The notes under the pieces are model-generated. The model made no database searches. It worked only from the letters and a program-made list of their open reading frames with translations, and had not been told where the DNA came from. A stretch of DNA of 51,007 nt from Candidatus Taylorbacteria bacterium RIFCSPLOWO2_12_FULL_43_20 (GTDB taxonomy: Bacteria; Patescibacteriota; Minisyncoccia; Phycocordibacterales; HO2-43-120), in NCBI GenBank assembly GCA_001821295.1, contig MHSK01000015.1:1-51007 (forward strand), given 5' to 3'. Shown one piece after another: positions 1,595 through 51,007 of the stretch. Positions within the stretch are counted from its first letter, which is position 1, and each line of letters begins with the position of its first letter. A program made the position numbers and the translations under genes.

Positions 1595-1662
1595 AAAATA
1601 AAGGGGGAGTACTCCGCACCTTTTTATCAGATAAAAAGGTGCGGAGGGTGGGGGTTCTCTTT
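1595..1662. repeat. Family G hairpin element, copy 1
   Basis: A 68-nt unit centred on a long hairpin: CTCCGCACCTTTTTATC pairs with its complement across a tiny loop, flanked by GGGGGAGTA and GGTGGGGGTTCTCTTT. A second full copy lies at 16121-16188. One stem pair is C-G here and A-T there, a compensatory change. It follows the sugar transferase stop and could also act as a terminator. Confidence 0.8.
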
Positions 1663-1715
1663 ACCCCGGCAAGCTAACAGCTAATAGCTGATAGCTAAAA
1701 GCTACAATAATAAAT

Positions 1716-2627
1716 ATGAAAAAAAACATCAGAGACAAAGTGGTGGTGGTCGGCGGAGCGGGGTTTATAGGTTCTCATTTGGTGGACGAGCTGGTGCGCG
1801 ATGGTTTAAACGTGCACGTAGTAGACAATCTTTCGCAAGGCAAAAAATCCAACGTACATCCGAGGGCCAAGCTTCATGTCATGGATATCATTGATTTGCC
1901 GTCAATTGCTCCAGTTTTCAAAAATGCTAAATACGTCTTTCACTTGGCCGCGTTGCCGAGAGTTCAATATTCCATAGAGCATCCCTCGGAGACCAACGCG
2001 GCAAACGTCGATGGCACGCTGAATATCTTAATCGCTTCGCGAAAAAATAAAGTAAAAAAAGTTGTTTTTTCCGCATCAAGCTCCGCTTACGGTGATCAGA
2101 AACAACTGCCGTTACGCGAAGACATGTTACCAAATCCAAAAAGCCCGTACGGTTTGCAGAAGCTTATGGGTGAGCAGTATATGAAATTGTGGTCGCTGGT
2201 TTACGGCTTGCCTACCGTCTCCCTTCGGTATTTCAATGTCTATGGTGAGCGGCAGAGTTCGGAAGGCGCTTACGCCCTGGTTATCGCGAAGTTTTTGGCC
2301 CAGAAGAAGCAAGGCGTACCTCTTACAATTACGGGCACGGGAAAACAGACTCGCGACTTTACCCACGTGCGTGACGTTGTCCGGGCTAATATTCTTGCCG
2401 CGAAAAGCCGAAAGACAGGCAGAGGGGAAGTGATAAATATTGGCGGAGGAGATAATCAATCCGTAAGAAAAGTGGCGTCTCTCATTGGCGGAAAGGTGAA
2501 GCACGTTCCTCCTCGCTTGGAGCCGCGTGACACGCTTGCCGATGTAAGTAAGGCGAAAAAACTTCTCGGATGGAAGCCGACCGTAAAATTTGAAGATGGA
2601 ATCAAAGAACTCTTGGACCTCCAATAG
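1716..2627 (+). CDS. NAD-dependent epimerase/dehydratase (nucleotide-sugar modifying SDR)
   Basis: Extended short-chain dehydrogenase of 303 aa that probably epimerises or oxidises a nucleotide sugar (UDP-glucose 4-epimerase-like). The N-terminal dinucleotide fold shows VVVVGGAGFIGSHLVD (GxxGxxG) with the acidic VVDN at the end of strand 2. SSSAYGD and the catalytic YGLQK (YxxxK, near residue 146) follow, then SLRYFNVYG and the C-terminal substrate domain. The ATG lies 8 nt after a TACAAT -10-like box. It follows the glycosylphosphotransferase in the same direction, separated by hairpin element G. The exact substrate is not determinable. Confidence 0.9.
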   Translation: MKKNIRDKVVVVGGAGFIGSHLVDELVRDGLNVHVVDNLSQGKKSNVHPRAKLHVMDIIDLPSIAPVFKNAKYVFHLAALPRVQYSIEHPSETNAANVDGTLNILIASRKNKVKKVVFSASSSAYGDQKQLPLREDMLPNPKSPYGLQKLMGEQYMKLWSLVYGLPTVSLRYFNVYGERQSSEGAYALVIAKFLAQKKQGVPLTITGTGKQTRDFTHVRDVVRANILAAKSRKTGRGEVINIGGGDNQSVRKVASLIGGKVKHVPPRLEPRDTLADVSKAKKLLGWKPTVKFEDGIKELLDLQ

Positions 2628-2941
2628 CAAAATTTCCCGATGGGGTACTCATTAGAAATTACCTGTCCCGAGCTTTGTTGAGGGAGATATTGGAAATTAT
2701 GGTTCAATTGCTTCACCATCCTGAGGAACTTGAAGGAAAAATTTGTTCCCCTCCCCCTCCTCTACCCCTTTTTAAAGTGGGAGTCCTAGTTCTTACTGTG
2801 TGCCGCCGAAGCTCGCTTCGAGCGTAGGGGTACGAGGGAGGGGTTTTCTCCCTTTTACCCATTCTTATTAATTTGCATATTTAACATTGAGTATTCCAAT
2901 GTCCAGCAAAAAACGCTATAATCCTCATTAATCGTATCCAT
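2628..2941. repeat. Mosaic of dispersed repeat elements upstream of secD
   Basis: No gene is seen. The block holds the 24-bp CCTGTCCCGAGC unit (2662-2685), the 38-bp ATGGTTCAATTGC unit (2699-2736), a pyrimidine-rich run, and a GCCGAAGCTCGCTTCGAGC hairpin unit near 2802-2840. All recur elsewhere in the window. Confidence 0.8.
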
Positions 2942-2981
2942 CCCCGACGCTTTGGTCGGGGCTCCGACCGAAGCGTCGGAG
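2942..2981. repeat. Family A 40-bp double-hairpin palindrome, copy 1 (upstream of secD)
   Basis: Two adjacent hairpins, CCCCGAC/GTCGGGG and CTCCGAC/GTCGGAG, whose loops are complementary, so the whole 40 bp is also one near-perfect inverted repeat. It is flanked on the left by ATTCGTATCCAT-type sequence and on the right by TAGTATATTCGTATTAATTC. It lies 39 nt before the secD start. One loop base is T instead of C relative to the commonest copy. Confidence 0.9.
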
Positions 2982-3020
2982 TAGTATATTCGTATTAATT
3001 CGTATATTGGCATCGTTATT

Positions 3021-4340
3021 ATGAAAATCCGCATTACAGCTTTCGCACTTCTTCTTATTGGCGCCGCCATTGGTTTTTTCGTATACAATTCCGAAGCGAG
3101 CCGGGATTCCAAATTTAATTTTAAGCTCGGGTTGGACTTGTCTGGAGGCAGTCATTTGATATACAAAGCCGATGTTTCCGAAATCAGATCGGATGATGTC
3201 AACGAATCAATGGAGGCGTTGAGAAATGTTATAGAAGCCAGAGTCAATCTTTTTGGCGTGTCTGAGCCATTGGTGCAGGTTGAGGAGGGCTTTTTTGGCG
3301 GAGAGAATCAGCACAAGCTTATTGTTGAATTGCCGGGCGTTACGGATATAGAGAAGGCGATTATGCTCATAGGCGCCACTCCTCTTTTGGAATTCAAACG
3401 GCTGGATAAAGACGTGGATTTTGAAAATATTGCGGAAGCTACAAGTACGGATATTTTTTTGAGTACGGGTTTGACGGGACGGTTGTTGGAGAGGGCTCAG
3501 TTGGAATTCAATCCGCAGACAGGGGAGCCGTCAGTAGTTTTGATATTCAATGACGAAGGCGCCGATCTTTTCGCGAGAATCACGGGAGAAAATATAGGAA
3601 ATATACTAGCGATTTTTCTGGATGGAAATATTATCTCTTCTCCCATAGTTAGAGACGAGATAACTGGCGGTCGAGCAGAAATCAGCGGGGGATTCACGGC
3701 CGAAGAGGCGAAACTTTTGGTGCGTGATTTGAACTACGGCGCTCTGCCCGTTCCCATAGAGCTTCTTTCCACTCAGACCATAGGCGCCACTTTGGGAGAA
3801 AAAGCGATTGAAGCGGGTGTATTAGCCGGCATTATTTCGTTCGTACTGATCTCGCTCTTTTTGATAATTTGGTACCGCCTGCCGGGCGCAATCTCAGTTG
3901 TGGCGTTAGCCGTTTACGTCGCGATAGTTCTTGCCATATTCAAGCTTATCCCCGTTACGCTTACCGCCGCCGGTATCGCTGGATTTATCCTATCCGTAGG
4001 CATGGCTGTTGATGCCAATATTTTAATCTTTGAGCGGATGAAGGAGGAACTTCGCGCCGGCAAGAACCTTCACCAGTCGGTCAAAGACGGATTTATACGC
4101 GCCTGGTCTTCAATACGCGACAGCAATATATCCAGCATCATAACTGCCGTGATATTGTTTTACTTCGCTTCCACGCCGATAGTGAAAGGGTTTGCTCTCG
4201 TTTTCCTCATTGGAGTCCTTGTCAGTATGTTTAGCGCCATCACTTTTTCCCGTACACTGCTCTTGGCTATTTTGCCCAAAGACGAGAACGCCCAGGGCGG
4301 CTTCCTGTTCAGATCCGGATTTAATAGAACCAGAAGTTGA
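3021..4340 (+). CDS. secD: Protein translocase subunit SecD
   Basis: SecD works with SecF in the inner membrane to pull secreted proteins through SecYEG using the proton gradient. At 439 aa it is shorter than the E. coli protein, as is common in small genomes. Visible features are the N-terminal membrane helix (residues 5-24), the GLDLSGGSHLIY motif, the periplasmic P1 region ending GALPVPIELLSTQTIGATLG, and six-helix RND-type membrane segments from about residue 255. GMAVDANILIFERMKEE is the conserved loop with the key acidic residue. Palindrome A1 lies directly upstream. secF follows after 153 nt that contain another copy of the same palindrome. Confidence 0.96.
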   Translation: MKIRITAFALLLIGAAIGFFVYNSEASRDSKFNFKLGLDLSGGSHLIYKADVSEIRSDDVNESMEALRNVIEARVNLFGVSEPLVQVEEGFFGGENQHKLIVELPGVTDIEKAIMLIGATPLLEFKRLDKDVDFENIAEATSTDIFLSTGLTGRLLERAQLEFNPQTGEPSVVLIFNDEGADLFARITGENIGNILAIFLDGNIISSPIVRDEITGGRAEISGGFTAEEAKLLVRDLNYGALPVPIELLSTQTIGATLGEKAIEAGVLAGIISFVLISLFLIIWYRLPGAISVVALAVYVAIVLAIFKLIPVTLTAAGIAGFILSVGMAVDANILIFERMKEELRAGKNLHQSVKDGFIRAWSSIRDSNISSIITAVILFYFASTPIVKGFALVFLIGVLVSMFSAITFSRTLLLAILPKDENAQGGFLFRSGFNRTRS

Positions 4341-4493
4341 TCGATGATTGATTTTTTTCGAATTTTTGATTTGTAATTTTTTGGAATTTGTTATTTGATG
4401 CTTATCTTATTCGTATCCATCCCCGACGCTTTGGTCGGGGCTCCGATCGAAGCGTCGGAGTAGTATATTCGTATTAATTCGTATATTTGTATC
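4341..4493. repeat. secD-secF gap: element E fragment and family A palindrome copy 2
   Basis: Positions 4360-4410 resemble family E (AT-rich text ending GATGCTTATCTTA), and 4421-4460 is the family A palindrome. This copy has two substitutions in the arms (T in loop 1; GATCG in place of GACCG). The AT-rich TAGTATATTCGTATTAATTC tail runs to 33 nt before the secF ATG. An element between two genes normally co-transcribed suggests that it is tolerated in mRNA or supplies a promoter. Confidence 0.85.
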
Positions 4494-5435
4494 ATGGACT
4501 TTATCAAACACAGAAAAATATTTTATTGGATCACCGGTATTATATCGGCGGCATGTGTCGCGGCGTTACTTATCTGGGGCTTAAATTTCGGGATAGATTT
4601 TACGGGCGGATCGGTCATAGAAATTTCTTACGGCAAAGAGACCGTGGAAAGAACTGAAATAGTTTCGGCGCTTGAGCAAATTGATCACCGAGGCGCTTCC
4701 GTGAGGGAAACCAAAACATCGGACGGCGGGCAGGGGGTCACGTACATTATAAGGACTAGAGAACTGGCGGGGCAGGATAGACAGATCTTTGTTTCCGCTC
4801 TGGAGCGGCTCGGGAGAGGGGATATGGAAATAATTAGATTTAATGCCATTGGCCCCATTCTTGGTAATGAATCCGCTCGCAAAGCCGCGTACTCAATAGT
4901 TTTTGTCATTATCGCAATTATTATTTTTATAACTTTCGCTTTCAGAAAAGTTTCCAAGCCGATATCATCATGGAAATACGGAGTGATAGCCATCGTCGCT
5001 CTCATTCACGACATGCTTATACCCACCGGAGTATTCGCCGCTCTCGGTCAATTCACAGGCGCGGAAGTTGACACTTTATTCGTTACGGCTCTCCTTGTAA
5101 TTCTCGGATTTTCAGTCCACGATACCATTGTCGTATTTGACAGGGTAAGGGAAAACTTGGCAAAAAATGAAGAAAACAACATCAAGAGAGATTTCTCAGA
5201 AGTTGTTAACGATGGCATAAAGCAGACCATGATGAGATCCATCAATACTTCAGTGACGACACTCCTTGCTTTGGCGGCCTTATATTTTTTCGGTCCCGAA
5301 GCCACGAAGCACTTTACTCTCGTCCTCATGATCGGCATAGCCGCCGGAACCTACTCATCCATCTTTCTCGCTTCCCCCTTGCTTGTCACAGCCGAAAAAT
5401 TGCAAAATAAAATCAATAAATCTAAAGTTAACTGA
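4494..5435 (+). CDS. secF: Protein translocase subunit SecF
   Basis: Partner of SecD in the accessory Sec complex, 313 aa. It has an N-terminal membrane helix, then GLNFGIDFTGGSVIEI (the SecF counterpart of the SecD GG motif), a short periplasmic part, and five further membrane helices with ARKAAYSIVFVIIAI and the FSVHDTIVVFDRVREN motif characteristic of SecF. The C-terminus is complete. A perfect hairpin begins 4 nt after the stop codon. Confidence 0.96.
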   Translation: MDFIKHRKIFYWITGIISAACVAALLIWGLNFGIDFTGGSVIEISYGKETVERTEIVSALEQIDHRGASVRETKTSDGGQGVTYIIRTRELAGQDRQIFVSALERLGRGDMEIIRFNAIGPILGNESARKAAYSIVFVIIAIIIFITFAFRKVSKPISSWKYGVIAIVALIHDMLIPTGVFAALGQFTGAEVDTLFVTALLVILGFSVHDTIVVFDRVRENLAKNEENNIKRDFSEVVNDGIKQTMMRSINTSVTTLLALAALYFFGPEATKHFTLVLMIGIAAGTYSSIFLASPLLVTAEKLQNKINKSKVN

Positions 5436-5438
5436 CAA

Positions 5439-5469
5439 AAATCCATCAAGGTTTAACCTTGATGGATTT
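5439..5469. terminator. Family H hairpin, copy 1 (after secF)
   Basis: Perfect 15-bp inverted repeat with a single central base around the core AAGGTTTAACCTT. It starts 4 nt after the secF stop and ends in a short T run, so it could terminate secDF. The same core occurs at 13972-13990, 16072-16096 and 46071-46097, each directly after a gene. Confidence 0.7.
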
Positions 5470-5567
5470 GTTGAATGACCGATTACCCGTATTCTTATTC
5501 TTGCGTAATTTAATATCAGTGCTAATATATTACCCATGAGTTTAGGACGGGCCACAATTATCATAGC

Positions 5568-5666
5568 TATAATTATTAAGATCTCCGGAAGTGGAGGTCT
5601 GGCTCGTGTTTACGCAAACTAAAAGAATCTCGTAGTCACAAGCCAGCTCTTCACCCCGAAGAGCTG
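5568..5666 (+). promoter_or_regulatory. Promoter and structured leader of the 5.7 kb gene
   Basis: TATAAT at 5568-5573 is followed by two hairpins in the presumed leader: AGATCTCC/GGAGGTCT (5579-5600, one mismatch) and a perfect CAGCTCTTC/GAAGAGCTG with a 5-nt loop (5644-5666). A GGGGAGG Shine-Dalgarno follows at 5704-5710. A long leader with SD is unlike the leaderless genes around it. Function is inferred only. Confidence 0.4.
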
Positions 5667-5713
5667 CTTTCGTTTAAAGCACTGTTTAACGCGAAAGGAA
5701 ATAGGGGAGGAAT

Positions 5714-6061: not shown

Positions 6062-6076
6062 CTCGCTCCACAAGCC

Positions 6077-6102
6077 AGCCGCCGCGCCCCGGCGGCTTTT
6101 TT
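6077..6102 (+). terminator. Intrinsic terminator
   Basis: AGCCGCCG and CGGCGGCT form a perfect 8-bp GC-rich stem with a 5-nt loop, followed by a run of T. It lies 16 nt after the stop of the upstream hypothetical gene. Confidence 0.85.
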
Positions 6103-6343
6103 ATTCTCCTTTTCCCCTCTTTAGAGGGGAAGTGCCGAGGTCTCCGAGGCGATGGGGTGTCTTCTCTTTTCTTCCCTTTTTTCCCCTTTTTGAATTTACA
6201 ATTTTTTCGAATTTGTTATTTGGTGCTTCGTGCTTATCTTATTAGTATTCATCCCCGACGCTTCGGTCGGGGCTCCGACCGAAGCGTCGGAGTCGTATAT
6301 TGGTATTTTCTAACAACTATTGACTAACAACTATCAACTTCTT
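6103..6343. repeat. Element cluster B + E + family A palindrome copy 3
   Basis: 6114-6159 is family B (CCCCTCTTTAGAGGGG hairpin followed by AAGTGCCGAGGTCTCCGAGG and GATGGGGTG), uninterrupted here. 6193-6243 is family E (GAATTTACAATTTTTTCG ... TTGGTGCTTCGTGC). 6253-6292 is the commonest form of the 40-bp palindrome A. The block sits between the convergent 5.7 kb gene and recG. Confidence 0.85.
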
Positions 6344-8509: not shown

Positions 8510-9168
8510 TTTTTTTCGCCACTTGTAAATTTAATAGCGGCACCGCAGACCGTTCCCTCTCTTCCCCTCTTTAGAGGGGAAGTGCCGACCGTGTCCCGCC
8601 GAAGCTCTTCTTAGGGCGAAGGGGGAGGTTTCCGAGGCGATGGGGTATTCCCCATTCGTGTGCACTTTTCGTCATGTGGTATCTACTATAAGTCATCGTA
8701 TCTCCATTATATTCTTTATCTATTCTTTTATAAACCCATAAATCAGCCGTTTTTTCTTTTCATTAGAAATTAGATATTAGAAATTATGGTTCAATTGCTT
8801 CACCATCCTGAGGAACTCGAAGGAGAAATTTCTTCCCTCTCCTCCTCCTTTCATAAAGGAGGTGGTCATAGACCGGAGGATTTCTCTCTCTTCCCTGTCA
8901 ATTGTTCATGTCAGTCGAGGGTTCCTCATTTGTAGCATTCGTCTTCATCCCCGACGCTTCGGTCGGGGCTCCGACCGAAGCGTCGGAGTCGTTGATTTGT
9001 GTTATTTACTAGCAAGCCAATAGCTAACAGCAAAAAGCTACCCGAAGCTATTGACGAGGCCACATCATCCATGTTAAAATAAACGCAGAAAAACTTTTAA
9101 ACAACGAGCATTTTTATCTTCAAATTCTGGTTGAATTTGGAGGAGTTTTTGGCAGAGAGGGTGATATT
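8510..9168. repeat. Mosaic of repeat elements between recG and the 9.2 kb gene
   Basis: No gene is seen. The region holds family B (8564-8646), carrying an inserted GTGTCCCGCCGAAGC unit, and family M hairpin (8657-8690, reverse orientation). It also holds the 38-bp ATGGTTCAATTGC unit (8786-8823), a CCTTTCATAAAGG hairpin with AGGTGGTCATAGACCGG (8843-8883), family A palindrome copy 4 (8949-8988) and a GCTAACAGC-rich tract. A TAAAAT -10-like box near 9075-9080 may serve the next gene. Confidence 0.85.
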
Positions 9169-10790: not shown

Positions 10791-10973
10791 GTCATTTCAT
10801 TGATTGCAAACTCTTTGTCTTAGTAATATCTTTTTTTTCTTTTTTTCTTCCTTTTTTGAATTTACAATTTTTTCAACTTTGTTATTTGGTGCTTCGTGTT
10901 TATCTAATGATGGGGTGTCGTTTCTTATTCGTATTCATTCGTATCATTAGTACCATTCGTATATTGGTATCTG
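10791..10973. repeat. Family E copy and an unoccupied family A flank
   Basis: 10855-10909 is family E. 10930-10972 carries the AT-rich flanks normally found around palindrome A (ATTCGTATTCATTCG, then TTCGTATATTGGTATC) without the palindrome. Confidence 0.7.
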
Positions 10974-11504: not shown

Positions 11505-11755
11505 AAAATTTATATATATAGCTAGTCAATTTACGGCATTATGATCGCCGTAAACATGTATTAATGCTTTCCTATTATATACAGGATCAACACAATCGGC
11601 TATATTTCCCTCCTTTTCTTCCTTTCCCACGGATTTCCTTTTCCCCTCTTCCATTAGAATTTACCTGTCCCGAGCTTTGTCGAGGGAGATATTAGAAATT
11701 ATGGTTCAATTACTTCACCATCCTGAGGAACTCGAAGGAGAAATTTCTTATTACC
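11505..11755. repeat. Intergenic block with the 24-bp and 38-bp inserted units
   Basis: 11664-11687 is the CCTGTCCCGAGC unit and 11701-11738 the ATGGTTCAATT unit, both inside a TTAGAAATT tract. Nothing else is recognised except an AT-rich upstream region of the cupredoxin gene. Confidence 0.8.
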
Positions 11756-13228: not shown

Positions 13229-13554
13229 ACAACCATTCTACGTGAAATGCCCCAAATTTCCAAAATTATTCCCGCGCCTTTTTTGTTAGAAATTACCTGT
13301 CCCGAGCGTTGTCGAGGGAGATATTAGAAATTATGGTTCAATTACTTCACCATCCTGAGGAACTCGAAGGAGAAATTTCTTCCTCCCCCTCTTCCTCTTC
13401 CCCTCTTTAGAGGGGAAGTGCCGAGTCCGCGAGGCGATGGGGTGTTCATTAAAGGGAAAGTGCCAACTGTGTCCCGCCGAAGCGTTGCGCGAAGGGGGAG
13501 TCCCCGAGCCGATGGGGTGTTCATTAGAAATTAGAAATTTCTTTCTTCTTGTGC
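13229..13554. repeat. Mosaic of repeat elements upstream of the Nudix gene
   Basis: 24-bp unit at 13296-13319, 38-bp unit at 13333-13370, family B at 13400-13444, then a GTGTCCCGCCGAAGC-type unit at about 13470-13502. 13523-13541 is TTAGAAATTAGAAATTTC, an empty version of the 38-bp unit's insertion site. No gene is seen. Confidence 0.85.
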
Positions 13555-16893: not shown

Positions 16894-16928
16894 CCAAGAA
16901 TGTCAACGCTTAGCGTTGACATTCTTGG
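16894..16928. repeat. Family I palindrome, copy 1 (left of purH)
   Basis: Perfect inverted repeat of 17 bp with one central base (CCAAGAATGTCAACGCT and complement). It is followed by GACAGATCAAACTTCAGGTG, which also follows copy 2 on the other side of purH, so purH is flanked by direct repeats of about 54 bp. Confidence 0.9.
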
Positions 16929-17073
16929 ACAGATCAAACTTCAGGTGACTGGCGAGTCTCTTTTCTTGTTTTTTTACCGTTTTTGAGTAATATACGGTTC
17001 AGATGTATATGGGAAAAACTCCCGAAGTTGACGGGCATTTGTCTGTCATAACTGAACAAAATGAAAGGAACTG

Positions 17074-18716: not shown

Positions 18717-18751
18717 CCAAGAATGTCAACGCTAAGCGTTGACATTCTTGG
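18717..18751. repeat. Family I palindrome, copy 2 (right of purH)
   Basis: Same 17-bp arms as copy 1 with A instead of T at the centre, followed by the same GACAGATCAAACTTCAGGTG. It is the right partner of the purH-flanking direct repeats. Confidence 0.9.
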
Positions 18752-18840
18752 ACAGATCAAACTTCAGGTGCGGCGAAGCCGAGATGATCGGTCGCTGTAG
18801 GCAAGAAAACTTTATGGTGTCCATGTACTTGAGCAATAGA

Positions 18841-19216: not shown

Positions 19217-19247
19217 AAGAATGTCAACGCTAAGCGTTGACATTCTT
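19217..19247. repeat. Family I palindrome, copy 3
   Basis: AAGAATGTCAACGCT with its complement, perfect apart from the centre. It starts 3 nt after the stop of the minus-strand gene at 19250 and probably serves as its terminator. Confidence 0.85.
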
Positions 19248-20106: not shown

Positions 20107-20700
20107 CACTGCGCCGAACGGGCATCATAGTTCGCCCAAGAATATCAACACTTAGTGTTGATATTCGAGAAGAAAAAACCTCCGGTTAGGAGGCGTGGGT
20201 TAAATGCATGCAGTAGGGTGAGCTATATTAGTGGGAAATCTGAACGTACCATCATCTGATGGTGAGATTGTTCGGCCAAAGCTCGGCCTGACTGTGTGCC
20301 CGCATGAAAGGACTTCATCCAGTGCGTCAACAGCATCAGATGTGCTTATTTCTAACGACAGTGACTCGAATTTGCTCGCGAAATCACGAGACGTCTTCTC
20401 CGTAATCTACAGCAACTCGCTGCTTGTATGCTTCGACGGTTGTCTTCATATTTCTTATTGCATTCTAACGCCTGCAATGCATATTTGCAAGTTTCTGCTG
20501 TTGGACGTCTGATGTCCGACACAATAAACTAGCAAAACTCTTCCGACACATGCTAAGGGCTCGTTCAATGGATGCAAGACGGGGGAGTTATTTATGAACG
20601 AGCCCTAAGTTAGTACATATTTAAATGCGTAATTAAATACTTACATGGCGGTGCATAAAAAAATAAAAATGTGCGGAAGGTAATCAAAAAGAATGTCGAC
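20107..20700. repeat. Gene-poor stretch with palindromes I4, I5 and TIR element K1
   Basis: I4 (20140-20166) and I5 (20688-20720) are family I palindromes with compensatory changes. 20553-20611 is a small element with inverted ends GGGCTCGTTCA/TGAACGAGCCC, recurring in longer form at 50807-50957. 20655-20682 resembles a decayed family G. A 93-codon open frame from a GTG at 20231 has no SD or motif and is probably not a gene. Confidence 0.75.
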
Positions 20701-20836
20701 ACTTAGTGTTGACATTCTTTCATGCGCTGCATTGTTCTCATTATTTTTGCGGTGTTTTTTGGACGAAGTTCGAACATTCTTTGAGCAAAACCCCCACTAA
20801 GGAAGCCAGCCCCGCCACCGCTCGACAAGCTCGCCA

Positions 20837-24168: not shown

Positions 24169-24306
24169 GAATTACGAACGAAACTCGTCGAAGGCAGGGC
24201 TTTTGCGGAACATTGCGCAAGCTGACGGGCGAGCATAGGGATTTTTTAGCAAAAAAATACCCGTGTTCCGCAAAAGCCCTGCCGAGAAAAGAGTTTCGTA
24301 ATTCAC
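24169..24306. repeat. Long-hairpin element J, copy 1 (between comF and pilM)
   Basis: About 138 bp with terminal inverted repeats ending GAATTACGAA..CTCG. An inner perfect 20-bp stem (GGCAGGGCTTTTGCGGAACA and complement) encloses a further AGGGATTTTTT/AAAAAAATACCC hairpin. A second copy at 50504-50631 differs mainly in the inner loop. It sits between the divergent comF and pilM starts. Confidence 0.9.
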
Positions 24307-24352
24307 GATATAATAATTATAATTCATGTAAACAGAGTTCCCAATATTTTTT

Positions 24353-25534: not shown

Positions 25535-25669
25535 TAGGACGTACGCGTTTATGGATGTCATTCCCGCGAAGGCGGGAATCCAGAGTACGCAGATAAGACT
25601 CTGGATTCCCGCCTTCGCGGGAATGACAGATGGGGAATAGTTTAAATAAACCGAACTACGTAAGTCCTA
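25535..25669. repeat. Small element with terminal repeats and dRS3-like arms
   Basis: The ends TAGGACGTACG and CTACGTAAGTCCTA are imperfect inverted repeats. Inside, TGTCATTCCCGCGAAGGCGG and its complement (25556-25628) form a long hairpin. The arm fits ATTCCC-N8-GGGAAT, the pattern of the Neisseria dRS3 repeat. Related copies lie at 27438-27542, 39056-39164 and 45551-45619. Confidence 0.85.
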
Positions 25670-25707: not shown

Positions 25708-25747
25708 CCCCGACGCTTCGGTCGGGGCTCCGACCGAAGCGTCGGAG
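25708..25747. repeat. Family A palindrome, copy 5 (upstream of pilN-like gene)
   Basis: Standard 40-bp double hairpin with its usual ATTCGTATCCAT left flank, 71 nt before the pilN-like ATG. The right flank is diverged. Confidence 0.9.
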
Positions 25748-27437: not shown

Positions 27438-27542
27438 TGTAGGACTTACGCAAAAGTTTGTTCTGGTCGGTGTCATTCCCGCATAGGCGGGAATCCAGGG
27501 CATTACTACGCACTCTGGATTCCCGTTTTCACGGGAATGACA
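27438..27542. repeat. dRS3-like hairpin element, copy 2
   Basis: Begins with TAGGACTTACGC just after the PilP-like gene, then TGTCATTCCCGC and its inverted partner ending at 27542. The arms have drifted (CATAGG in the loop of one, TTTTCA in the other). Confidence 0.8.
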
Positions 27543-27562
27543 GAAAATGTGTCAGTTCTATA

Positions 27563-27638
27563 AGAGCCCATCCACTATCTAATGGCAGGCAAGCCATGTC
27601 TTGCTTTATATCTGGCGGTTAGATCGTGGATGGGCTCT
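27563..27638. mobile_element. MITE-like element D, copy 1 (intact)
   Basis: 76 bp with perfect 13-bp terminal inverted repeats AGAGCCCATCCAC and GTGGATGGGCTCT, and no coding capacity. Copy 2 at 47813-47922 carries an inserted 38-bp unit. The element lies between the PilP-like gene and pilB. Confidence 0.85.
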
Positions 27639-32376: not shown

Positions 32377-32416
32377 CCCCGACGCTTCGGTCGGGGCTCC
32401 GACCGAAGCGTCGGAG
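32377..32416. repeat. Family A palindrome, copy 6
   Basis: Standard 40-bp double hairpin with ATTCGTATCCAT on the left and the full AT-rich tail on the right (TATATTCGTATTAATTCG). It lies upstream of the major pilin gene, separated from it by element L. Confidence 0.9.
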
Positions 32417-34879: not shown

Positions 34880-35119
34880 TAAAGAAATAGGATAATTGCA
34901 ATCCCTCTCTTGCTCCGCCGAAGCTCGCTTCGAGCGAAGGGGGGTTAGAGGGGAAGTGCCGAGGGTTTCCGAGGCGATGGGGTGATTCGTATCCATTAGT
35001 ATTATTTTTTGTAATTTGTCATTTAGTGCTTCGTGCTTATTTAAAGATGGGATGTCTTTTATGATTTAGAATTTAGAATTTTTTCGAATTTCGTATTTCG
35101 AATTTCGTGCTTTGTATTT
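34880..35119. repeat. Family B with inserted unit, empty family A site, two family E copies
   Basis: 34903-34984 is family B, whose CCCCTC/GAGGGG hairpin is interrupted by a TTGCTCCGCCGAAGCTCGC unit. 34986-35000 (ATTCGTATCCATTAG) is the uninterrupted form of the palindrome A site. 35000-35050 and 35060-35119 are family E and a degenerate AT-rich relative. Confidence 0.85.
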
Positions 35120-35944: not shown

Positions 35945-36188
35945 TTTTTATATGGATTTCACAATCGGCTCTTATTCCTCCTTTTGTAAAGGAGGTGGTC
36001 ATAGACCGGAGGATTTTTTCCCTCTTCCCCTCTTTAGAGGGGAAGAGCCGAGGTTTCCGAGGCGATGGGGTGATTCGTATTCATCCCCGACGCTTCGGTC
36101 GGAGCCCCGACCGAAGCGTCGGGGTAGTATATCGGTATCTGTTATTATTAAGTAAGAAATGAATAATCCAGACCAACTGTGTAAGTTA
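35945..36188. repeat. Elements F, B and family A palindrome copy 7 (inverted core)
   Basis: 35971-36014 is family F (CCTTTTGTAAAGG hairpin with AGGTGGTCATAGACCGG). 36027-36072 is uninterrupted family B. 36085-36124 is palindrome A with its core in the opposite orientation (GGAGCCCC in place of GGGGCTCC) while the flanks are in the usual orientation. Confidence 0.85.
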
Positions 36189-38945: not shown

Positions 38946-41257
<2,312 letters not shown>

Positions 41258-41549
41258 TCCATCTTCTCCCTCTTCCCCTCCCTTGCTCCGCCGAAGTAGG
41301 TGATTCGTATCTTGGTATTTTTTTTGTAATTTGTTATTTGGTGCTTGGTGCTTATCTGAAGATGGGGTGTCTTTTCTTCTTCCTCCTTTCATACCGTGTG
41401 CCTCCGTAGCTCGCTTCGAGCGAAGGGGCAAAGGAGGTGGTTGTAGACCAGAGGATTTCTCTCTCTTCCCCGTCAAATGTCAATTGTTCATGTCAGGTGT
41501 TTTTTACTAGCAAGCTAACAACTTCTTCACATTATGATATTATAAACTC
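41258..41549. repeat. Element E, family F with inserted unit, GCTAAC tract
   Basis: 41325-41370 is family E. 41384-41462 is family F, whose CCTTTCATA/AAGGAGG hairpin is interrupted by a GTGTGCCTCCGTAGCTCGC unit. ACTAGCAAGCTAACAAC follows. No gene is seen. Confidence 0.8.
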
Positions 41550-41885: not shown

Positions 41886-41990
41886 TCTCTTGCTCCGCCG
41901 AAGCTCGCTTCGAGCGTAGGAGTACGAGGGATGGGGTGATTCGTATCCATCCCCGACGCCTCGGTCGGGGCTCCGACCGAGGCGTCGGAG
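41886..41990. repeat. gatC-gatA gap: GCCGAAGC hairpin unit and family A palindrome copy 8
   Basis: 41886-41937 has the GCTCCGCCGAAGCTCGCTTC unit and GATGGGGTG. 41951-41990 is palindrome A with a compensatory change: CGCCTCGG and CCGAGGCG replace CGCTTCGG and CCGAAGCG. It ends 18 nt before the gatA ATG, so the AT-rich tail (TAGTATATTGGCATC) could supply the gatA -10. Confidence 0.9.
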
Positions 41991-44216: not shown

Positions 44217-44570
44217 CAGCAGACACCATTTAACAAAAAGCGATAGGGTAGTCTCTTCTTCCTCCTTTCATAGTATATACCGCTTAACGAAAAGCGCACA
44301 CGAATGGGGAACACCCAGCGCTTCGGCAGGATAGAGTCGGGGTGGTCGTAGACCGGAGGATCCTCCCTTCTTGACTGGAAATTAGATATTAGAAATTATG
44401 GTTCAATTGCTTCACCACCCTGAGGAAGAGAAATTTCTTCATCCCCTCTTCCTCTTCCCCTCTTTAGAGGGGAAGTGCCGAGGTTTCCGAGGCGATGGGG
44501 TGATTCGTATATTTGTATTTTATGAGCTGACGACTGAAAGCTAATATTCGCTTCTCTCGCGCTTGTAAGG
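44217..44570. repeat. Heavily nested repeat block upstream of the CAU tRNA
   Basis: Family F (44258-44360) is interrupted by family M (44274-44305) plus a CAGCGCTTCGGCAGGATAG stretch. 44398-44428 is the 38-bp unit with its last bases missing. 44457-44502 is uninterrupted family B. 44503-44520 is truncated A flank. No gene is seen. Confidence 0.8.
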
Positions 44571-44603: not shown

Positions 44604-44608
44604 AATAG

Positions 44609-44679: not shown

Positions 44680-45078
44680 ATGTGGCTCCAATATATCATA
44701 AAATGAAAATTATTCAAGCGATTTGTTAAATATACAAAATTATAATATATTTAAAACCGGAGGCCGAAGGATTTCTTCTTTTCCCATCCTTTCATAAAGG
44801 AGGGGGTCGTAGACCGGAGGATCCTCCCTTCTTGACTGGAAATTAGATATTAGAAATTAGAAATTTCTTCATCCCCCTCTTCCTCTTCCCCTCCCTTGCT
44901 CCGCCGTAGCTCGCTTCGAGCGAAGGGGAGTTAGAGGGGAAGTGCCGACTGTGTCCCGCAGTAGCTTCTTAGCGAAGGGGGAGGTTTCCGAGGCGATGGG
45001 GTGTCTTTTCTTATCCTTCTTTTTTTGAATTTATAATTTTTTGGAATTTGTAATTTGGCGCTTCGTGCTTATCTAAAT
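44680..45078. repeat. Nested repeat block between the two CAU tRNAs
   Basis: 44757-44823 is family F (CCTTTCATAAAGG). 44845-44871 is an empty site of the 38-bp unit (TTAGAAATTAGAAATTTC). 44888-45003 is family B carrying two separate inserted units, one in the hairpin (44895-44930) and one after GTGCCGA (44949-44981). 45025-45078 is family E, which runs directly into the tRNA. Confidence 0.85.
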
Positions 45079-45149: not shown

Positions 45150-45156
45150 AATAACT

Positions 45157-45310: not shown

Positions 45311-45317
45311 TGTATCC

Positions 45318-45500: not shown

Positions 45501-45550
45501 CGGAGAACGTGATCTTTCACACCTTGAGGGCTGTTATTTCCGCGCTCCTC

Positions 45551-45619
45551 TGTCATTCCCGCGAAGGCGGGAATCTAGGCCTCATTTTAATCTGGATTCC
45601 CGCTTTCGCGGGAATGACA
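45551..45619. repeat. dRS3-like hairpin element, copy 4
   Basis: TGTCATTCCCGCGAAGGCGG and its partner CCGCTTTCGCGGGAATGACA flank a 30-nt middle. The left TAGGACTTACG end seen in other copies is not found here. Confidence 0.85.
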
Positions 45620-45723
45620 CCACTCAATCTTGTGAGGAGTTACTGTACAGAAATGGACTAAGAGGGACTAAGAGAGTTGAATTCTTTCGTATTATTTGTT
45701 AAATTGATCAAACAGTGAAAATT

Positions 45724-46031: not shown

Positions 46032-46036
46032 CAAGG

Positions 46037-46097: not shown

Positions 46098-46148
46098 GGT
46101 GACATGTTACAAATATGTATAATGCGTTGAAGATTCGGTTCTGACTGC

Positions 46149-46154
46149 TATACT
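46149..46154 (+). promoter_or_regulatory. -10 box of a leaderless promoter
   Basis: TATACT ends 6 nt before the ATG at 46161 of the glycosidase gene. Confidence 0.5.
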
Positions 46155-46160
46155 TCTCGC

Positions 46161-47300
46161 ATGGGAACGTTTTTTAAATACGGATCTTTCATATTGTTCG
46201 TATTTATCATTGTGGTTAGTCTTTTTATTTACAAGAGTAAGTACGTAAACCAAAAAGCGGAAGAAATTACAAAATCGTCGGATAGCTTAAAACAAGATCC
46301 TGTTCTGGCCGAAATTGATAATATGACTATTGATGAGAAGGTCGGCCAAATGTTCATGTTGGGAGTCTTCGAATCAGGCTGGGAAACAATAATTGAACAA
46401 GCAATATCAGAAAAAACAATAGGAGGGATACTTATAACCGGCTCAAATGTAAAAGAAACTTCCGATATTCGGTCAGCGATAGAGGAGTTTCAGTCAATTG
46501 CCCGTCAAACTGAACAGCCCAAGCTTTTAGTGTCTGTGGATCAGGAGGGCGGCATTGCTTCCAGGTTTATAGGAGATGGCTTTGTAAACACCGCGCAATG
46601 GGAAATAAAAAATGCAAAACAGGCGTACGAAACAGCATTTAAGCGAGCCGTGGAGCTCAACGCCTTGGGTTTCAATACAAATTTTTCTCCGGTCCTTGAA
46701 CATGTTACCAATTCCAAATCATTTTTATACCCGCGAGTTTTTAGAGGAAATAAGGATGAAATAATAGAATGGGGAGGCGCTATGGTCAGGGGATACAAAG
46801 ATGGCGGAATCATCTCAACCGTGAAGCATTTTCCCGGCCACCTGGACGATTCATTGGATTCTCACAGAGAACTGCCCGAGGTCAATGTCCAAAGTGAAAA
46901 CAAGGAGGAGTATCTAAGTGTATTCAAAGAAATTATTAAAGAAGAGAATCCTGCTATGGTAATGACGGCTCACGTTCTTGTGCCTTTTTTTGACGAGGAG
47001 TATCCCGCGACTTTATCTTCAAAAATTATTAAGGGAATTCTTCGCGAAGAGTTTGGCTATGACGGAGTAATTATCACCGATGATATGGAGATGGGCGCCA
47101 TTAGAAACTCGTTTACTCTTGAAGCGGCTGTCATAAGAGCTGTGGAGGCGGGTAATGATATTTTGCTTTTTACTTCTTCAAGTGAACGCCAGAGACAAGC
47201 ATACGGCATTTTATTGGATGCCGTAAAATATGGCCGCATTGACGAAACTCGCATTGATCAAAGTCTTCAACGCATAATGCGATTGAAGCTTACATATTAG
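46161..47300 (+). CDS. Membrane-anchored family 3 glycosidase (beta-N-acetylhexosaminidase-like, NagZ-type)
   Basis: 379 aa. An N-terminal helix (residues 5-25, YGSFILFVFIIVVSLFIYK) anchors it outside the cell. The TIM barrel is of glycoside hydrolase family 3: DEKVGQMFMLG, LLVSVDQEGG, GFNTNFSPVLE, KHFPGHLDDSLDSHRELP (the NagZ-type catalytic loop with Asp-x-His) and the nucleophile Asp in GVIITDDMEMGAI. It probably cleaves GlcNAc-containing glycans, such as peptidoglycan of the host or itself. TATACT just before the ATG indicates a leaderless transcript. Confidence 0.92.
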   Translation: MGTFFKYGSFILFVFIIVVSLFIYKSKYVNQKAEEITKSSDSLKQDPVLAEIDNMTIDEKVGQMFMLGVFESGWETIIEQAISEKTIGGILITGSNVKETSDIRSAIEEFQSIARQTEQPKLLVSVDQEGGIASRFIGDGFVNTAQWEIKNAKQAYETAFKRAVELNALGFNTNFSPVLEHVTNSKSFLYPRVFRGNKDEIIEWGGAMVRGYKDGGIISTVKHFPGHLDDSLDSHRELPEVNVQSENKEEYLSVFKEIIKEENPAMVMTAHVLVPFFDEEYPATLSSKIIKGILREEFGYDGVIITDDMEMGAIRNSFTLEAAVIRAVEAGNDILLFTSSSERQRQAYGILLDAVKYGRIDETRIDQSLQRIMRLKLTY

Positions 47301-47363
47301 TTGTTGAGCTTTGGTCTCGCACGTTATAAAATAATACTTAAGAATTATTAGTTTTAAAAAAAT

Positions 47364-47744
47364 ATGAACAACAAATTGATTCAGTGGGTTTTGAGAATTG
47401 CCGTGGCCGGAGAATTTTTGGGACACGGTGTCTTTGCCCTTCAAGGCAAAGAGCAATGGATCGGGTGGGTGAGTCAGCTCACAGGGATGGACATGGAGTC
47501 CGCGGCGATGTTTATCCTTTGGGTTGGAGTTTTGGATATTATAGTGGCGTTATTTATTCTTATAAAGCCGATACGTATATTTTTACTCTGGGCAGTTATC
47601 TGGGGTTTTTGGACTGCTCTCGTCAGGCCATTGGTTGGCGAGCCGATCTGGGATTTCGTTGAAAGATGGGCAAATTGGGGAGCGCCTCTTGCTTTACTCC
47701 TGCTTATCGGATGGCCAAAAAATTGGAAAGAGTGGTTCCGTTAA
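47364..47744 (+). CDS. Small DoxX-like membrane protein
   Basis: 126 aa, with about four hydrophobic segments: WVLRIAVAGEFLGHGVFAL, AAMFILWVGVLDIIVALFIL, IFLLWAVIWGFWTALVRPL and GAPLALLLLIGW. Early RIAVAGEFLGHG and the size resemble DoxX-like proteins. The specific role is unknown. It has an intrinsic terminator and probably shares the glycosidase promoter (63 nt apart). Confidence 0.7.
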   Translation: MNNKLIQWVLRIAVAGEFLGHGVFALQGKEQWIGWVSQLTGMDMESAAMFILWVGVLDIIVALFILIKPIRIFLLWAVIWGFWTALVRPLVGEPIWDFVERWANWGAPLALLLLIGWPKNWKEWFR

Positions 47745-47763
47745 AGTAAAAAACGCAACAAAA

Positions 47764-47799
47764 AAAGAGACACATCGATCATACGATGTGTCTCTTTTT
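47764..47799 (+). terminator. Intrinsic terminator
   Basis: AAAGAGACACATCG pairs with CGATGTGTCTCTTT across ATCATA, followed by TTG-rich sequence. Being symmetric, it may work in both directions. Confidence 0.9.
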
Positions 47800-47812
47800 G
47801 CTTAATCTTTTT

Positions 47813-47922
47813 AGAACCCATCCACTATCTCCTTCGAGTTCCTCAGGATGGTGAAGCAATTGAACCATAATGGCAAGCCATGTCTTGCTTCATATCTGGC
47901 GGTTAGATCGTGGGTGAGCTCT
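47813..47922. mobile_element. MITE-like element D, copy 2, carrying the 38-bp unit
   Basis: Same ends as copy 1 with a few changes (AGAACCCATCCAC and GTGGGTGAGCTCT). Between CTATCT and AATGGC, adjacent in copy 1, it contains the 38-bp unit in reverse orientation (47831-47868). The right end overlaps the last base of the RNR stop codon. Confidence 0.88.
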
Positions 47923-50234
47923 TATACCACCTCACAGACTCCGGACATGCAAGCGAGCTCTTTTTTGACATCAAGATCGTCGGTTTTTTCGTACGTGATA
48001 ATCTTGGAATAGTCCACATGAGCCAATCTTTCAGAAAGCTCCTTATATTTTTTCTCATCTATCGTCTCGTAAGGGGCAAGGGGATAGATATGATTGTCTC
48101 TGGGCAGGAAAGACAGCCCCCCCACAATGTCCCAGTTGGCGTATACCCAGTTCGCCACTTCTATCCACTCATTTTCTCCCACGGACACCGTAACGGACGG
48201 GTTATGCTCGGTATAATTGGTTTTTACAAGTTTCCAATGTTCCAGTTGGTCAATTGCTGTTAAGTCATTTTTAAATATTGAACCTGGCGGAGCTTTTACC
48301 GGAAACTCTAGGACGTAAGTGGTGGCGTTTTCTTTGGATTGTCCGATTTCCGGGTGATAGGGAACACCCTGATCCTTCAGCATCTTGAACAGAGAGTCTG
48401 TTGCCGATATTCTGATTCTTCTTATGTAATATGGAGCATGCCTCGGATGCATTCCCGACGAGCAATCCACTGTCTGTGACAGAGTTCCTGACGGTTTGAC
48501 GCAAGTGATGCATGTTGACGCGCTGATGTTCATTCTCTTTGCGTAAATCTGGTTAATTTTTATTGCTTCTTTTTTAAGTTTTGCCAGCATTTTCGGCTCG
48601 CAGACAGCGGGGCAGTCCCATTGTCCCGTAATTGATACTCCGAGCAGGCGCTCTTTATCGCAGTTTTCCTGCCATCCTTTGGAAATGTAAGGGAAATGGG
48701 TCAGACTGGCCTGGTATGTTCCCAAAATGGTCGCGATTCTCATTTTTTCGAGCAGTGTCTTTTCCGTGTCATCCGAGCGGGCGACAATTTCCGACAAATT
48801 ACAGAACTGTTTGGATTGCAATATGATCTCACCGCATGGGTTTGTGCCGATGGAACCGATGATGTTGTTTCCGCTGGCGTCAAAATAACCTTTGTACTGC
48901 TTCAATACCTGTATCCTCCTTTCAGGCAAAGTTTTTGCCAGCGATCCTCTGTTGAAAATACCTCTTTCTCCAGAGCCCGATTTCATAAGGGATATCCACT
49001 CCTCCATAAATTCGGAATTTGACGGCTTTTGCATATAAACCGCTGAGTTGTTGGCGAGCATTCTTTGCGGTTCGCTATTGTAGAAGGCGCCCTTTTTCGC
49101 GTCCCTTATGTCATCATCATCCAGGTCTGAAAGCGATATCATCGCGCTCCTTCGGACTCCTCCCGAGACGACACAGTCGCCAATCATGCAGATAATGTCA
49201 TGCACGTCTATGTTGCGCAGGCGTTTGCCCTGTCTGGTCAGCATTTTCTCTCTTGTAAACGACAGTAAACGTCTCAAAGGATCAGGTCCGGAGGCCTTCC
49301 CTCCCATAGTCTTCAGTCGCGTTCCCGCCGGGCGTAGAAGTGAAAAATCAAAATCAACGTCTTTGCCGCTTGCCCATGTTTTCATGCCGAATACAAAAGC
49401 GTCCGACCATCCTTCTTTGTCATCAGATATTACATGCGTTGGTAGTTTTTCTCCCGTCTGCATCATTATTTGAGGAAATTTCTGGACGTTTTGGCTCTCA
49501 ACGGACCATCCTGCTCCCGTGCCGCACATGGAGACATACATGATCTCCGCCATGTCTTGAAAATTTTCCGGCGCTATGTAAGAACAGTTATAAGCGCAAA
49601 CATTTGTCGCTCGCGCCGCCTTGCCGGCAAACTGCAAAAGCCGCATGGATGGCATCGCCTCCTGTTTCAAAATACCCTCCCTGATTTCTTTGTACTCGGA
49701 TTCTTTCAGCTTATTACCCAGATTTTCTTTCATAAATCCTATGTATCTGTCCACCGTCTCAATCCATGTCTCTCGCCTCTGTTCTTCTTCCATCCAGCGG
49801 GAATAGGTTCTGTAGTAGACGAATTCGCCGAGCGAGTTTCTGAAGTATTTTTTGCTTTCCTCGGCCATTTTTTTGACCTTTGGGGGTACTCGTACGCCCT
49901 GCTCCCTCAGTTTCGCCCTTTTTTCTCTGTAGAGTATGTATGATTTGGCTGTCTTGACGTATTCGCTCAGTATCAGCTCTTTTTCCACCGTATCTTGCAC
50001 TCCCTCAACCGTGGGAATGAAATTTTTGTATTTTCGAGTTATACGCAATACATCAGCGTATACTTTGTTGGCGACCAGTTCCGCTTCTTTGGGAGATCCT
50101 TCTCCTGTGGCAATCATTGACTTATTGATCGCCGTCGCGATCTTGGAAATGTCAAAAGGGACGAACGTCCCGTCTCTTTTCTGAATTGTTTTGACCTTGA
50201 CCTCCACGTTTCGTGCTTGTTTTTTGGTTGCCAT
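47922..50234 (-). CDS. nrdJ: Adenosylcobalamin-dependent (class II) ribonucleotide reductase
   Basis: 770 aa. Makes deoxynucleotides using a B12-derived radical, so the cell needs cobalamin. An N-terminal ATP-cone (KTIQKRDGTFVPFDISKIA) gives allosteric control. The catalytic barrel has CGTGAGWSVE (first substrate Cys) and NPCGEIILQSKQFCNL, where the radical Cys and the second redox Cys are 11 residues apart, exactly as in the Lactobacillus monomeric enzyme. The C-terminus ends ACMSGVCEVV with a shuttle Cys-x4-Cys pair. Element D2 abuts its stop codon. No corrinoid synthesis gene is in the window, so B12 must be imported or salvaged. Confidence 0.95.
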   Translation of the reverse strand: MATKKQARNVEVKVKTIQKRDGTFVPFDISKIATAINKSMIATGEGSPKEAELVANKVYADVLRITRKYKNFIPTVEGVQDTVEKELILSEYVKTAKSYILYREKRAKLREQGVRVPPKVKKMAEESKKYFRNSLGEFVYYRTYSRWMEEEQRRETWIETVDRYIGFMKENLGNKLKESEYKEIREGILKQEAMPSMRLLQFAGKAARATNVCAYNCSYIAPENFQDMAEIMYVSMCGTGAGWSVESQNVQKFPQIMMQTGEKLPTHVISDDKEGWSDAFVFGMKTWASGKDVDFDFSLLRPAGTRLKTMGGKASGPDPLRRLLSFTREKMLTRQGKRLRNIDVHDIICMIGDCVVSGGVRRSAMISLSDLDDDDIRDAKKGAFYNSEPQRMLANNSAVYMQKPSNSEFMEEWISLMKSGSGERGIFNRGSLAKTLPERRIQVLKQYKGYFDASGNNIIGSIGTNPCGEIILQSKQFCNLSEIVARSDDTEKTLLEKMRIATILGTYQASLTHFPYISKGWQENCDKERLLGVSITGQWDCPAVCEPKMLAKLKKEAIKINQIYAKRMNISASTCITCVKPSGTLSQTVDCSSGMHPRHAPYYIRRIRISATDSLFKMLKDQGVPYHPEIGQSKENATTYVLEFPVKAPPGSIFKNDLTAIDQLEHWKLVKTNYTEHNPSVTVSVGENEWIEVANWVYANWDIVGGLSFLPRDNHIYPLAPYETIDEKKYKELSERLAHVDYSKIITYEKTDDLDVKKELACMSGVCEVV

Positions 50235-50503
50235 TTTTTTATTGGTTAGTTTTATAAATAAAGTTCTATTCGTGTGCTTTTTTCGTCAAGCGGTATCTAC
50301 TATGAAGGTTGTGCATGACAAGTATACCAGCACCTCGCTTGGGCATTCAATAAAAAAAGGTGGATAAGCCCGAGCCATGCATCATATTGATTACCAAGTC
50401 AATTTTACGAATTAAAAAATTTGACTGAATAAACATTTTGTTCTTTATACATTAAAAAAACATTGCTTATTTGATATTGCGATGCTAAATTTACTTTGTA
50501 TTA
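50235..50503. repeat. Upstream region of RNR with family M hairpin
   Basis: 50269-50302 is family M in reverse orientation (GTGTGC..TTCGTCAAGCGGTATCTA). The remainder is AT-rich with no gene or riboswitch that I can recognise; a cobalamin riboswitch box (GCCACTG) is not seen. Confidence 0.7.
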
Positions 50504-50631
50504 TGAAACTCGTCGCAGGCAGGGCTTTTGCGGAACATTGCGGAAGCCGACGGGCTCTGCATAGGGATTTTTTAGCAAAAAAATACCCGTGTTCCGCAAA
50601 AGCCCTGCCGAGAAAAGAGTTTCGTAATTCA
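50504..50631. repeat. Long-hairpin element J, copy 2
   Basis: Same 20-bp GGCAGGGCTTTTGCGGAACA stem and GAAACTCG/CGAGTTTC-type ends as 24169-24306. The segment between stem and inner hairpin differs (GGAAGCCGACGGGCTCTGC). Confidence 0.9.
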
Positions 50632-50806
50632 CAATAATTTAGTATTAAGTTATTTGTCGAGCAGGTGCTCGAGCTCCGCTTTGCGGAGTTGGAAATGAGG
50701 TTTGATTCCTCTACTGTGCCGCAACGGTGAAGCTCGGCGCATGTTTTTTCAAGAAATCCTAATTTCTTGAAAAAGTATGTGTCGAGACAAGTCCGGTCAT
50801 CAGATA
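50632..50806 (+). other. Unassigned structured stretch
   Basis: Contains hairpins GAGCTCCGC/GCGGAGTT (50673-50690), GAGG/CCTC with TTTGATT loop (50697-50712) and TTTCAAGAAAT/ATTTCTTGAAA (50748-50773). No open frame or known RNA class is recognised. Confidence 0.3.
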
Positions 50807-50957
50807 ACTTAGGGCTCGTTCATAAATAACTCCCCCGTCTTGCATCCATTGCATCACTGGATATGGCCGCTACTCAATCACAAAATCTCTCATCGTACTT
50901 CTAGTACGCCTCAAGATTTTGTTCAATCGTAGCGACCATATCCGGCGCGCATTGAAC
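50807..50957. repeat. Element K, copy 2, with a 100-nt internal segment
   Basis: Starts with AACTTAGGGCTCGTTCATAA, the reverse of K1 at 20553-20611. After TGCATCCATTG it contains about 100 nt absent from K1, bounded by ATTG on both sides and holding inverted arms GGATATGGCCGCTAC/GTAGCGACCATATCC. 50967-51003 is another GTGTCCCGCCGAAGC unit, cut by the window end. Confidence 0.75.
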
Positions 50958-51007
50958 GCAATCCGACCGTGTCCCGCCGAAGCTTCTTAGCGAAGGAGGA
51001 GGAAGTT

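Follow-up and report, generated by a model that had tools for sequence, protein, structure and literature searches.

What fills the spaces between the genes of a reduced bacterial genome is the question raised by the contig MHSK01000015.1 of Candidatus Taylorbacteria bacterium RIFCSPLOWO2_12_FULL_43_20, a stretch of 51,007 nucleotides that is contig C15 among the 38 contigs of a 1,008,403-bp genome (100% complete) and is called the window below. The initial annotation of this window described at least a dozen families of short, mostly palindromic repeats, inserted in one another and occupying nearly every intergenic gap with no transposase in sight. Following these repeats, which are designated by letters, through the window, its genome and related genomes, we conclude that the gaps of this Paceibacterota (Parcubacteria) genome are on balance probably filled by a layered set of at least three classes of small, non-autonomous mobile elements. 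The word streamlined is often applied to reduced Patescibacteria genomes, yet about half of the intergenic DNA here would then consist of nested mobile elements from three or more classes.

The repeat load was determined by comparing the window with itself and with a 428-kb sample of its own genome. Self-blastn revealed 5563 bp in 50 repeat segments, and against the sample 52% of the intergenic bases (5704/11,011) were covered by repeats, compared with 3.3% of the bases (1327/39,996) in open reading frames (ORFs) of at least 90 aa, a crude gene call. At least 20 bp of repeat was carried by 27 of the 38 gaps that are 60 bp or longer, so that many gaps are filled, though not nearly every one. 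Consensus scans found 16 families or sub-units in the window, and 23 family patterns each gave zero matches on the reversed sample, in keeping with the dozen or more families first described. Their palindromic character was more uneven than had been stated: folding predictions gave strong structures for A, E, C and G and none for B and the 24-bp units, with D in between, weak to moderate at z −1.6 and −2.5. The median gap length was 148 bp in this genome versus 95 bp in the same-genus genome G001.

Occupied and empty versions of the same sites were then sought by a junction scan of the sample, which recorded pairs of 12-mers that are adjacent at one locus and 15-160 bp apart at another. The scan returned 3328 raw hits versus 6, 0 and 12 in three first-order shuffles, and the 705 plus-strand events were reduced to 352, at 116 occupied loci, when cases resembling tandem duplications were removed. 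Many 41-45-bp cases, which set single H hairpin arms against H pairs, were left uncounted as insertions, as were cases of 94 and 106 bp that may be deletions within miniature inverted-repeat transposable elements (MITEs); the apparent presence and absence is in part a matter of single versus paired H hairpins, recombination chimeras and, possibly, such internal MITE deletions. Among the guests, the D insert (32-39 bp) was found between CTTCCCCTCT and TTAGAGGGGAAG, a host with 17-18 empty copies, between CCTCCTTTCAT and AAAGGAGG, between CCTCGTTCTTA and CGAGG, between CGTA and TATTAG, inside an H hairpin between ATTCCCGC and GAAAGCGGGAAT, and between GTGCCGA and GGTTTCCGAGG. A was inserted between ATACAA and ATGGAT in blocks of that type, B in K, N and F blocks, and the 24-bp units in N and B-type hosts. 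All four units for which both versions had been claimed, namely A, a 38-bp unit, a 24-bp unit and the GCCGAAGC unit, indeed occur in occupied and empty form, and the claim of precise insertion is supported by the shuffle control together with the distribution of A and one orthologous empty site, which are described below.

Palindrome A is 40 bp long, and its core gave 45 forward and 49 reverse matches across the genome, corresponding to about 50 copies because the core is a palindrome and is matched on both strands. It was present in 13 of 14 stretches of its own genome and in none of 396 others from the order, which had been sampled evenly from a larger set. Among 46 copies in the 428-kb sample, 43 had AT before the unit and T and GT after it, the insertion point lying between YAT and T(C/T/A)GT; with respect to the host, 41 had the same orientation, 4 were inverted and 1 was a tie. 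In the window, A lies on the plus strand at 2942-2981, 6253-6292, 25708-25747 and 32377-32416, at 4421-4460 in the secD-secF gap, at 8949-8988 in a second host context (TCGTTGATTTGTG), and at 41951-41990 as a variant with a compensated CTCGG/CCGAG change; at 36085-36124 (minus strand) its body is inverted relative to the host. The host block formed by ATTCGTAT and ATTGGTATC occurs without A at 10927-10971 (plus strand) and was also found in G001, and empty copies are known for at least two different A hosts. Copying of host and A together accounts for part of the uniform junction and orientation, and a third context looks more like module exchange than clean insertion. Neither terminal inverted repeats (TIRs) nor a consistent target-site duplication (TSD) were found for A, B, D or the 24-bp units, and where occupied and empty sites could be compared the junctions of A and D carried no duplication. 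One diverged A copy (contig C35, 18711) has surroundings that differ from the usual host motif. An origin of A in an rRNA spacer was considered and rejected, with zero A copies in the 3.1 kb around the genome's own 5S rRNA; in G001 (contig C5, ~48020), the 5S rRNA is preceded by a double hairpin whose stems are those of A and whose loops differ.

The A copy at 4421-4460 also has an empty counterpart in another genome. In the gap upstream of secF in G001, CAT is joined directly to TTGTATATT at the exact base, with no A and no duplication. The local alignment score for the secD-secF gap was 37 with A removed and 23 with A, against a shuffle maximum of 18; a global alignment of a differently cut secF stretch was not significant (13.4 versus a shuffle maximum of 14.0). 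Syntenic gap pairs with G001 numbered 37 at first and 65 when more G001 sequence was included. The genome of the window encodes secD, secF, recG, ligA and gatA, and among the best 80 of 246 relatives the proteins closest to the window RecG came from Paceibacterota and other Parcubacteria at 67% identity or less; as the best match reaches only 67%, those relatives are too distant for gap comparison. A was absent from all 80 relative loci kept of the 246. If the repeats were ancient regulatory or terminator hairpins passed on vertically, their mostly intergenic position would be expected; exact occupied and empty pairs and the absence of A from the 396 other genomes would not, and the occurrence of A in 13 of 14 stretches makes an assembly artefact unlikely as well, so that we hold either explanation to be extremely improbable.

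The D unit is more widely distributed than A. Its exact pattern occurs in 49 copies in the own genome, with 0 for the reversed pattern, and it was found in 65 other genomes of the 397 at 1-7 copies each, so that D is older than A and has been amplified here. A D unit of 38 bp occupies a C-right host at 8589-8626, where its ends can slide by 1-3 bp, and one of 34 bp occupies an identical host site at 44949-44982 (both plus strand). The site of the 38-bp unit, between GTGCCGA and GGTTTCCGAGG, is empty at 44466 and, with one extra base, at 34947; in the sample it was empty four times, carried 34-39 bp six times and 64 bp once. The GCCGAAGC unit, also D, interrupts the C hairpin between CTTCCCCTCT and TTAGAGGGGAAG at 44895-44930, in the hairpin loop, and a further D unit lies in a G hairpin loop at 41393-41429 (both plus strand). 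D cores were located on the plus strand at 2806-2830, 13477-13497 and 50977-50998, at 34918-34942, where D sits in a C hairpin with a diverged left arm, and at 41898-41922, a recombinant that joins the left arm of the C host to the right arm of a different one. The C hairpin is intact and free of D at 44454-44475 (plus strand), and also at 6111, 8561, 10274, 13397 and 36024.

The position of D within its hosts was examined in terms of predicted stems. The sequences flanking D form a stem of at least 7 in 13 of 41 sample copies, compared with 3.1 expected from mismatched flanks. By hand classification, host-loop sites accounted for 4 of 7 D hosts and for 6 of all 17 guest-host pairs, with binomial chances of 0.0015 and 0.002 at a base rate taken from nearby positions (225/2652); these 17 pairs, which exclude variable spacers, H single and paired cases and the MITE cases of 94 and 106 bp, were judged after seeing the data. 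Over all 78 junctions, a stem of at least 6 was present in 23, versus 225/2652 nearby and 117/4000 random positions, but this test is not given first place because single and paired H copies and MITE deletions inflate it. No common motif was seen at the D targets. Several D copies combine the left arm of one host with the right arm of another, which indicates that recombination at D contributes to the mosaic.

Such features could also arise without any transposition, if a hairpin were cut by a structure-specific nuclease or stalled replication, repair by template switching among repeats pasted one hairpin at the tip of a second, and recombination shuffled the modules. The loop positions of D, its recombinants with arms of two hosts, insert lengths that vary from 32 to 39 bp, the want of TIRs or a consistent TSD and the four A copies inverted in place would all fit this process. 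It does not predict the constant junction features of A (43/46) or the recurring ends of D in several hosts, and for the guest units we judge it rather unlikely.

Further guests and hosts show the same layering. The 24-bp unit sits in N blocks at 2662-2685, 11664-11687 and 13296-13319 and is absent from the N block at 8759-8790 (all plus strand) as well as at 44371. B units were identified at 8788-8824 (plus strand), 2693-2742, 11703-11739, 13335-13371, 38990-39026 and 47830-47866 (minus strand), and whereas one of their hosts showed no target duplication, a second showed a possible one of 6 bp. H hairpin pairs are located at 25556-25637 (plus strand), 27469-27545, 39090-39166 and 45545-45624. 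Outside the window, an H-like hairpin pair lies at ~1115-1190 of locus L221 (own contig C28), a site that we take to be the 3′ helix of the 23S rRNA, and at the same locus the 5S rRNA apparently carries an insertion in one arm; insertions in the rRNA genes of CPR bacteria are the topic of PMC11270868.

Candidate movers were sought in the genome as a whole. A Y1 HUH transposase, which the initial annotation had proposed to look for elsewhere, was found in the form of four genes resembling REP-associated tyrosine transposases (RAYTs; REP, repetitive extragenic palindrome), which encode 223-251 aa, share invariant NHFH and YI motifs and score 26.8-39.9 bits against Pfam Y1_Tnp (cut-off 23); Y1 genes were detected in 25 of 41 genomes. 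All four are accompanied by a short palindrome, on one side or on both. Of 27 Y1 loci (4 own, 3 in G001 and 20 in other genomes), 12 had one palindrome word of at least 12 bases repeated on either side of the gene (own 1/4, G001 2/3, others 9/20), as did 9 of 2000 pairs of random windows. Palindromes on one side were seen at several further loci and none at 3 or more, and at one locus the gene encoded 147 aa, as long as an IS200 transposase. Palindromes beside RAYT-like genes are therefore seen across the Paceibacterota genomes sampled. When the protein encoded on contig C31 was searched against the PDB, the one match was insignificant.

The E palindromes of the window, at 16896-16926, 18719-18749, 19217-19247 and, with paired changes, 20689-20719 (all plus strand), belong to the family of the palindrome located 5′ of the RAYT-like gene on C31, and the core of the O family, AAGGTTTAACCTT, resembles palindromes adjoining RAYT genes of relatives. 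The likeness to RAYT-driven REPs that had been drawn from the sequence therefore holds for E and perhaps O, and not for A, B, C or D. The purH gene lies between two 54-bp direct repeats (16894-16947 and 18717-18770), each made of an E palindrome and ~18 bp of common flank, and downstream of the RAYT-like gene on C31 (locus L043) a run of 33 N falls within a C hairpin. One could suppose a single system with several REP types, in which the four RAYT-like proteins act on E and also on A, B, C, D and H. Y1_Tnp was the only HUH family with matches among those searched, IS605 OrfB being absent, A inserts without a TSD, and the H hairpin doublet is REPIN-like, all of which would suit a single mover; the palindromes beside the four Y1 genes, however, differ in sequence from A, B, C, D and H, TIRs are present in families I and P, and the D targets lack a visible motif. 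We consider such a common mover improbable.

A second group of elements carries TIRs. The TIR GAATTACGAAACTC and its complement are common to the copies of family I and to a 971-bp IS982-like element on contig C20, the protein of which scores 104 bits (cut-off 130); no clear target-site duplication was seen by eye in the family I flanks. Family I copies are located at 50498-50630 (plus strand) and ~24180-24327. The P elements have the TIR TAGGACTTACGC and end in TA; of 12 TIR pairs listed, 5 enclose an H hairpin, and one P copy is a 24-bp TIR-to-TIR palindrome. In the window, the P element at 25535-25669 (plus strand; one mismatch at each end) contains an H hairpin pair. A K element, with a TIR of the GAGCCCATCCACGATCTAA type, is found at 27564-27638, and another, with an inserted B unit, at 47814-47922 (both plus strand). 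Given the RAYT-like genes and the TIR that family I has in common with the IS982-like element, a number of the layers resemble ordinary REPs and MITEs.

The statement that no transposase is in sight held for the 20 long window ORFs scanned (10 against Pfam and 10 against NCBIfam) and did not extend to the genome, which encodes, besides the four RAYT-like Y1 proteins and the IS982-like protein, an IS1634 element (335 bits, cut-off 100). DDE_Tnp_1 had two matches in the genome, and IS605 OrfB and rve had none; other families, such as IS66 and IS110, were not searched. By eye, the IS982-like element seems to split an IS66-type transposase gene (locus L211, 1120-2090), and the IS1634 element is flanked by a direct repeat of ~26 bp (locus L210, ~960-2520).

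Copying through RNA by a reverse transcriptase, as suggested for tiny mitochondrial repeats, was also considered, as the genome contains one reverse transcriptase gene, with a group II intron reverse transcriptase/maturase as its best NCBIfam model (152 bits, cut-off 300). This gene adjoins a bAvd-like accessory gene and two near-identical stretches resembling template and variable repeats (TR/VR), in a cassette at 945-2340, with 28-345 and 699-1064, of locus L220 (own contig C37), and for this reason it looks like part of a diversity-generating retroelement; reverse transcription was rejected as the mover, and we rate it very improbable. The locus carries two A copies.

Taking these results together, we propose that at least three classes of element would have built up the gaps. 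Short perfect palindromes (E, and perhaps O) would be REPs copied by RAYT (HUH, Y1) single-strand transposases encoded elsewhere, with the RAYT-like proteins presumably moving E. The TIR elements I, P and K would be MITEs, and I would be driven by the IS982-like transposase. The third class, the guests A, B, D and the 24-bp units, would insert into other repeats at precise base positions, A at YAT/T(C/T/A)GT and D preferentially in host hairpin loops, and may move via single-stranded (hairpin) DNA through a trans-acting HUH-type or structure-directed process; no candidate mover for A, B, C, D or H was found among the families sought in the genome. Host and guest composites would be copied whole and would recombine where they share a guest, thereby generating mosaics. 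Tentatively, the third class might represent a kind of mobile DNA undescribed in bacteria, of 24-40 bp and with no TIR, TSD or gene of its own; were this possibility correct, its guests would enter the loops of pre-existing hairpins (D) or a constant motif 6-7 bases long (A) and form Russian-doll palindromes through a single-strand or structure-directed activity of the Paceibacterota cell. With exact insertion points and the empty sites of A, which include one orthologous site, the movement of gene-less palindromes below 50 bp becomes testable.

Several observations weigh against this interpretation. No RAYT or insertion sequence (IS) was linked to A, B, C, D or H, and four A copies are inverted within their host. 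In 215 kb of G001, only 3 occupied loci were left after filtering. The sole NCBIfam match of the four Y1 proteins, REP-associated tyrosine transposase, scored 27-45 bits, below its cut-off of 80; the E palindrome lies directly 5′ of the C31 gene on one side only; by eye, no constant GTAG tag was seen beside 17 E-like copies; and by the 12-base rule only the gene on contig C10, among the own four, is matched by a palindrome on both sides. The comparison of orthologous gaps with G001, proposed at the outset as a check, proved alignable in 1 of 24 element tests (1 of 9 for A), where the site was empty for A, so that the orthologous proof rests on one site, and the other 23 tests neither support nor refute insertion. 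The loop preference is post hoc, and each guest-host pair may be a single event copied many times; selection for harmless positions would produce an identical loop picture.

How the nested repeats relate to known systems was finally considered. Rickettsia palindromic elements are short palindromes amplified in a reduced genome and enter coding sequence in frame, whereas the repeats here are mostly intergenic, covering 3.3% of ORF bases versus 52% of intergenic bases. The nearest bacterial case, as far as features rather than sequences can be compared, is probably that of the small dispersed repeats (SDRs) of Nostoc, which Elhai et al. are said to have described in 2008 as tiny nested hairpin elements embedded in tandem repeats and minitransposons; they are reportedly 21-27 nt long, without a known transposase and confined to a clade. 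Tiny units nest in other repeats here too, but they measure 24-40 bp, belong to another phylum, and are accompanied by layers with likely movers. I, P and K resemble the MITEs of DDE insertion sequences in their TIRs, with the TAGGACTTACGC elements ending in TA, while A, B, D and the 24-bp units differ from them in having neither TIRs nor a consistent TSD. Set against IS200/IS605 elements, A shows no TSD at the orthologous site and sits mostly in one orientation (41/46, with 4 inverted), a bias to which copying of host and A together contributes, and the Y1 genes have RAYT length and no IS605 OrfB partner was found. The REP/RAYT systems, for which rules of recognition are given in PMC8266576, are approached by the E palindromes, by the RAYT-like genes beside palindromes and by the hairpin doublet H; E differs in lacking a GTAG tag, and A and D are not the palindromes adjacent to the RAYT-like genes. 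Some clusters look like REPINs inserted into or beside REPINs (PMC3116915), but the accessible part of that paper describes no multi-family nest such as the present one.

In the open-licence literature on REPs, repeats and IS, no account of such nested repeats in Patescibacteria was found, and in its available part the main text of PMC6006769 carries none of the terms candidate phyla, Parcubacteria or OD1. As a general statement, calling the arrangement undescribed, as the initial annotation did, is too strong. PMC4478555 describes GC42 of yeast mitochondria, a mobile GC-rich palindrome of 42 nt with presence and absence and with merging and shuffling with other clusters, and the units described here share with it the short palindrome, the presence/absence and the merging with other units. 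In Volvox carteri organelles, noncoding palindromes of ~50 nt are often inserted in one another, by a mechanism that PMC2670323 leaves open; the nest there lies in organelle DNA, and the accessible part of the paper shows no exact junctions with empty sites such as those of the present bacterial genome.

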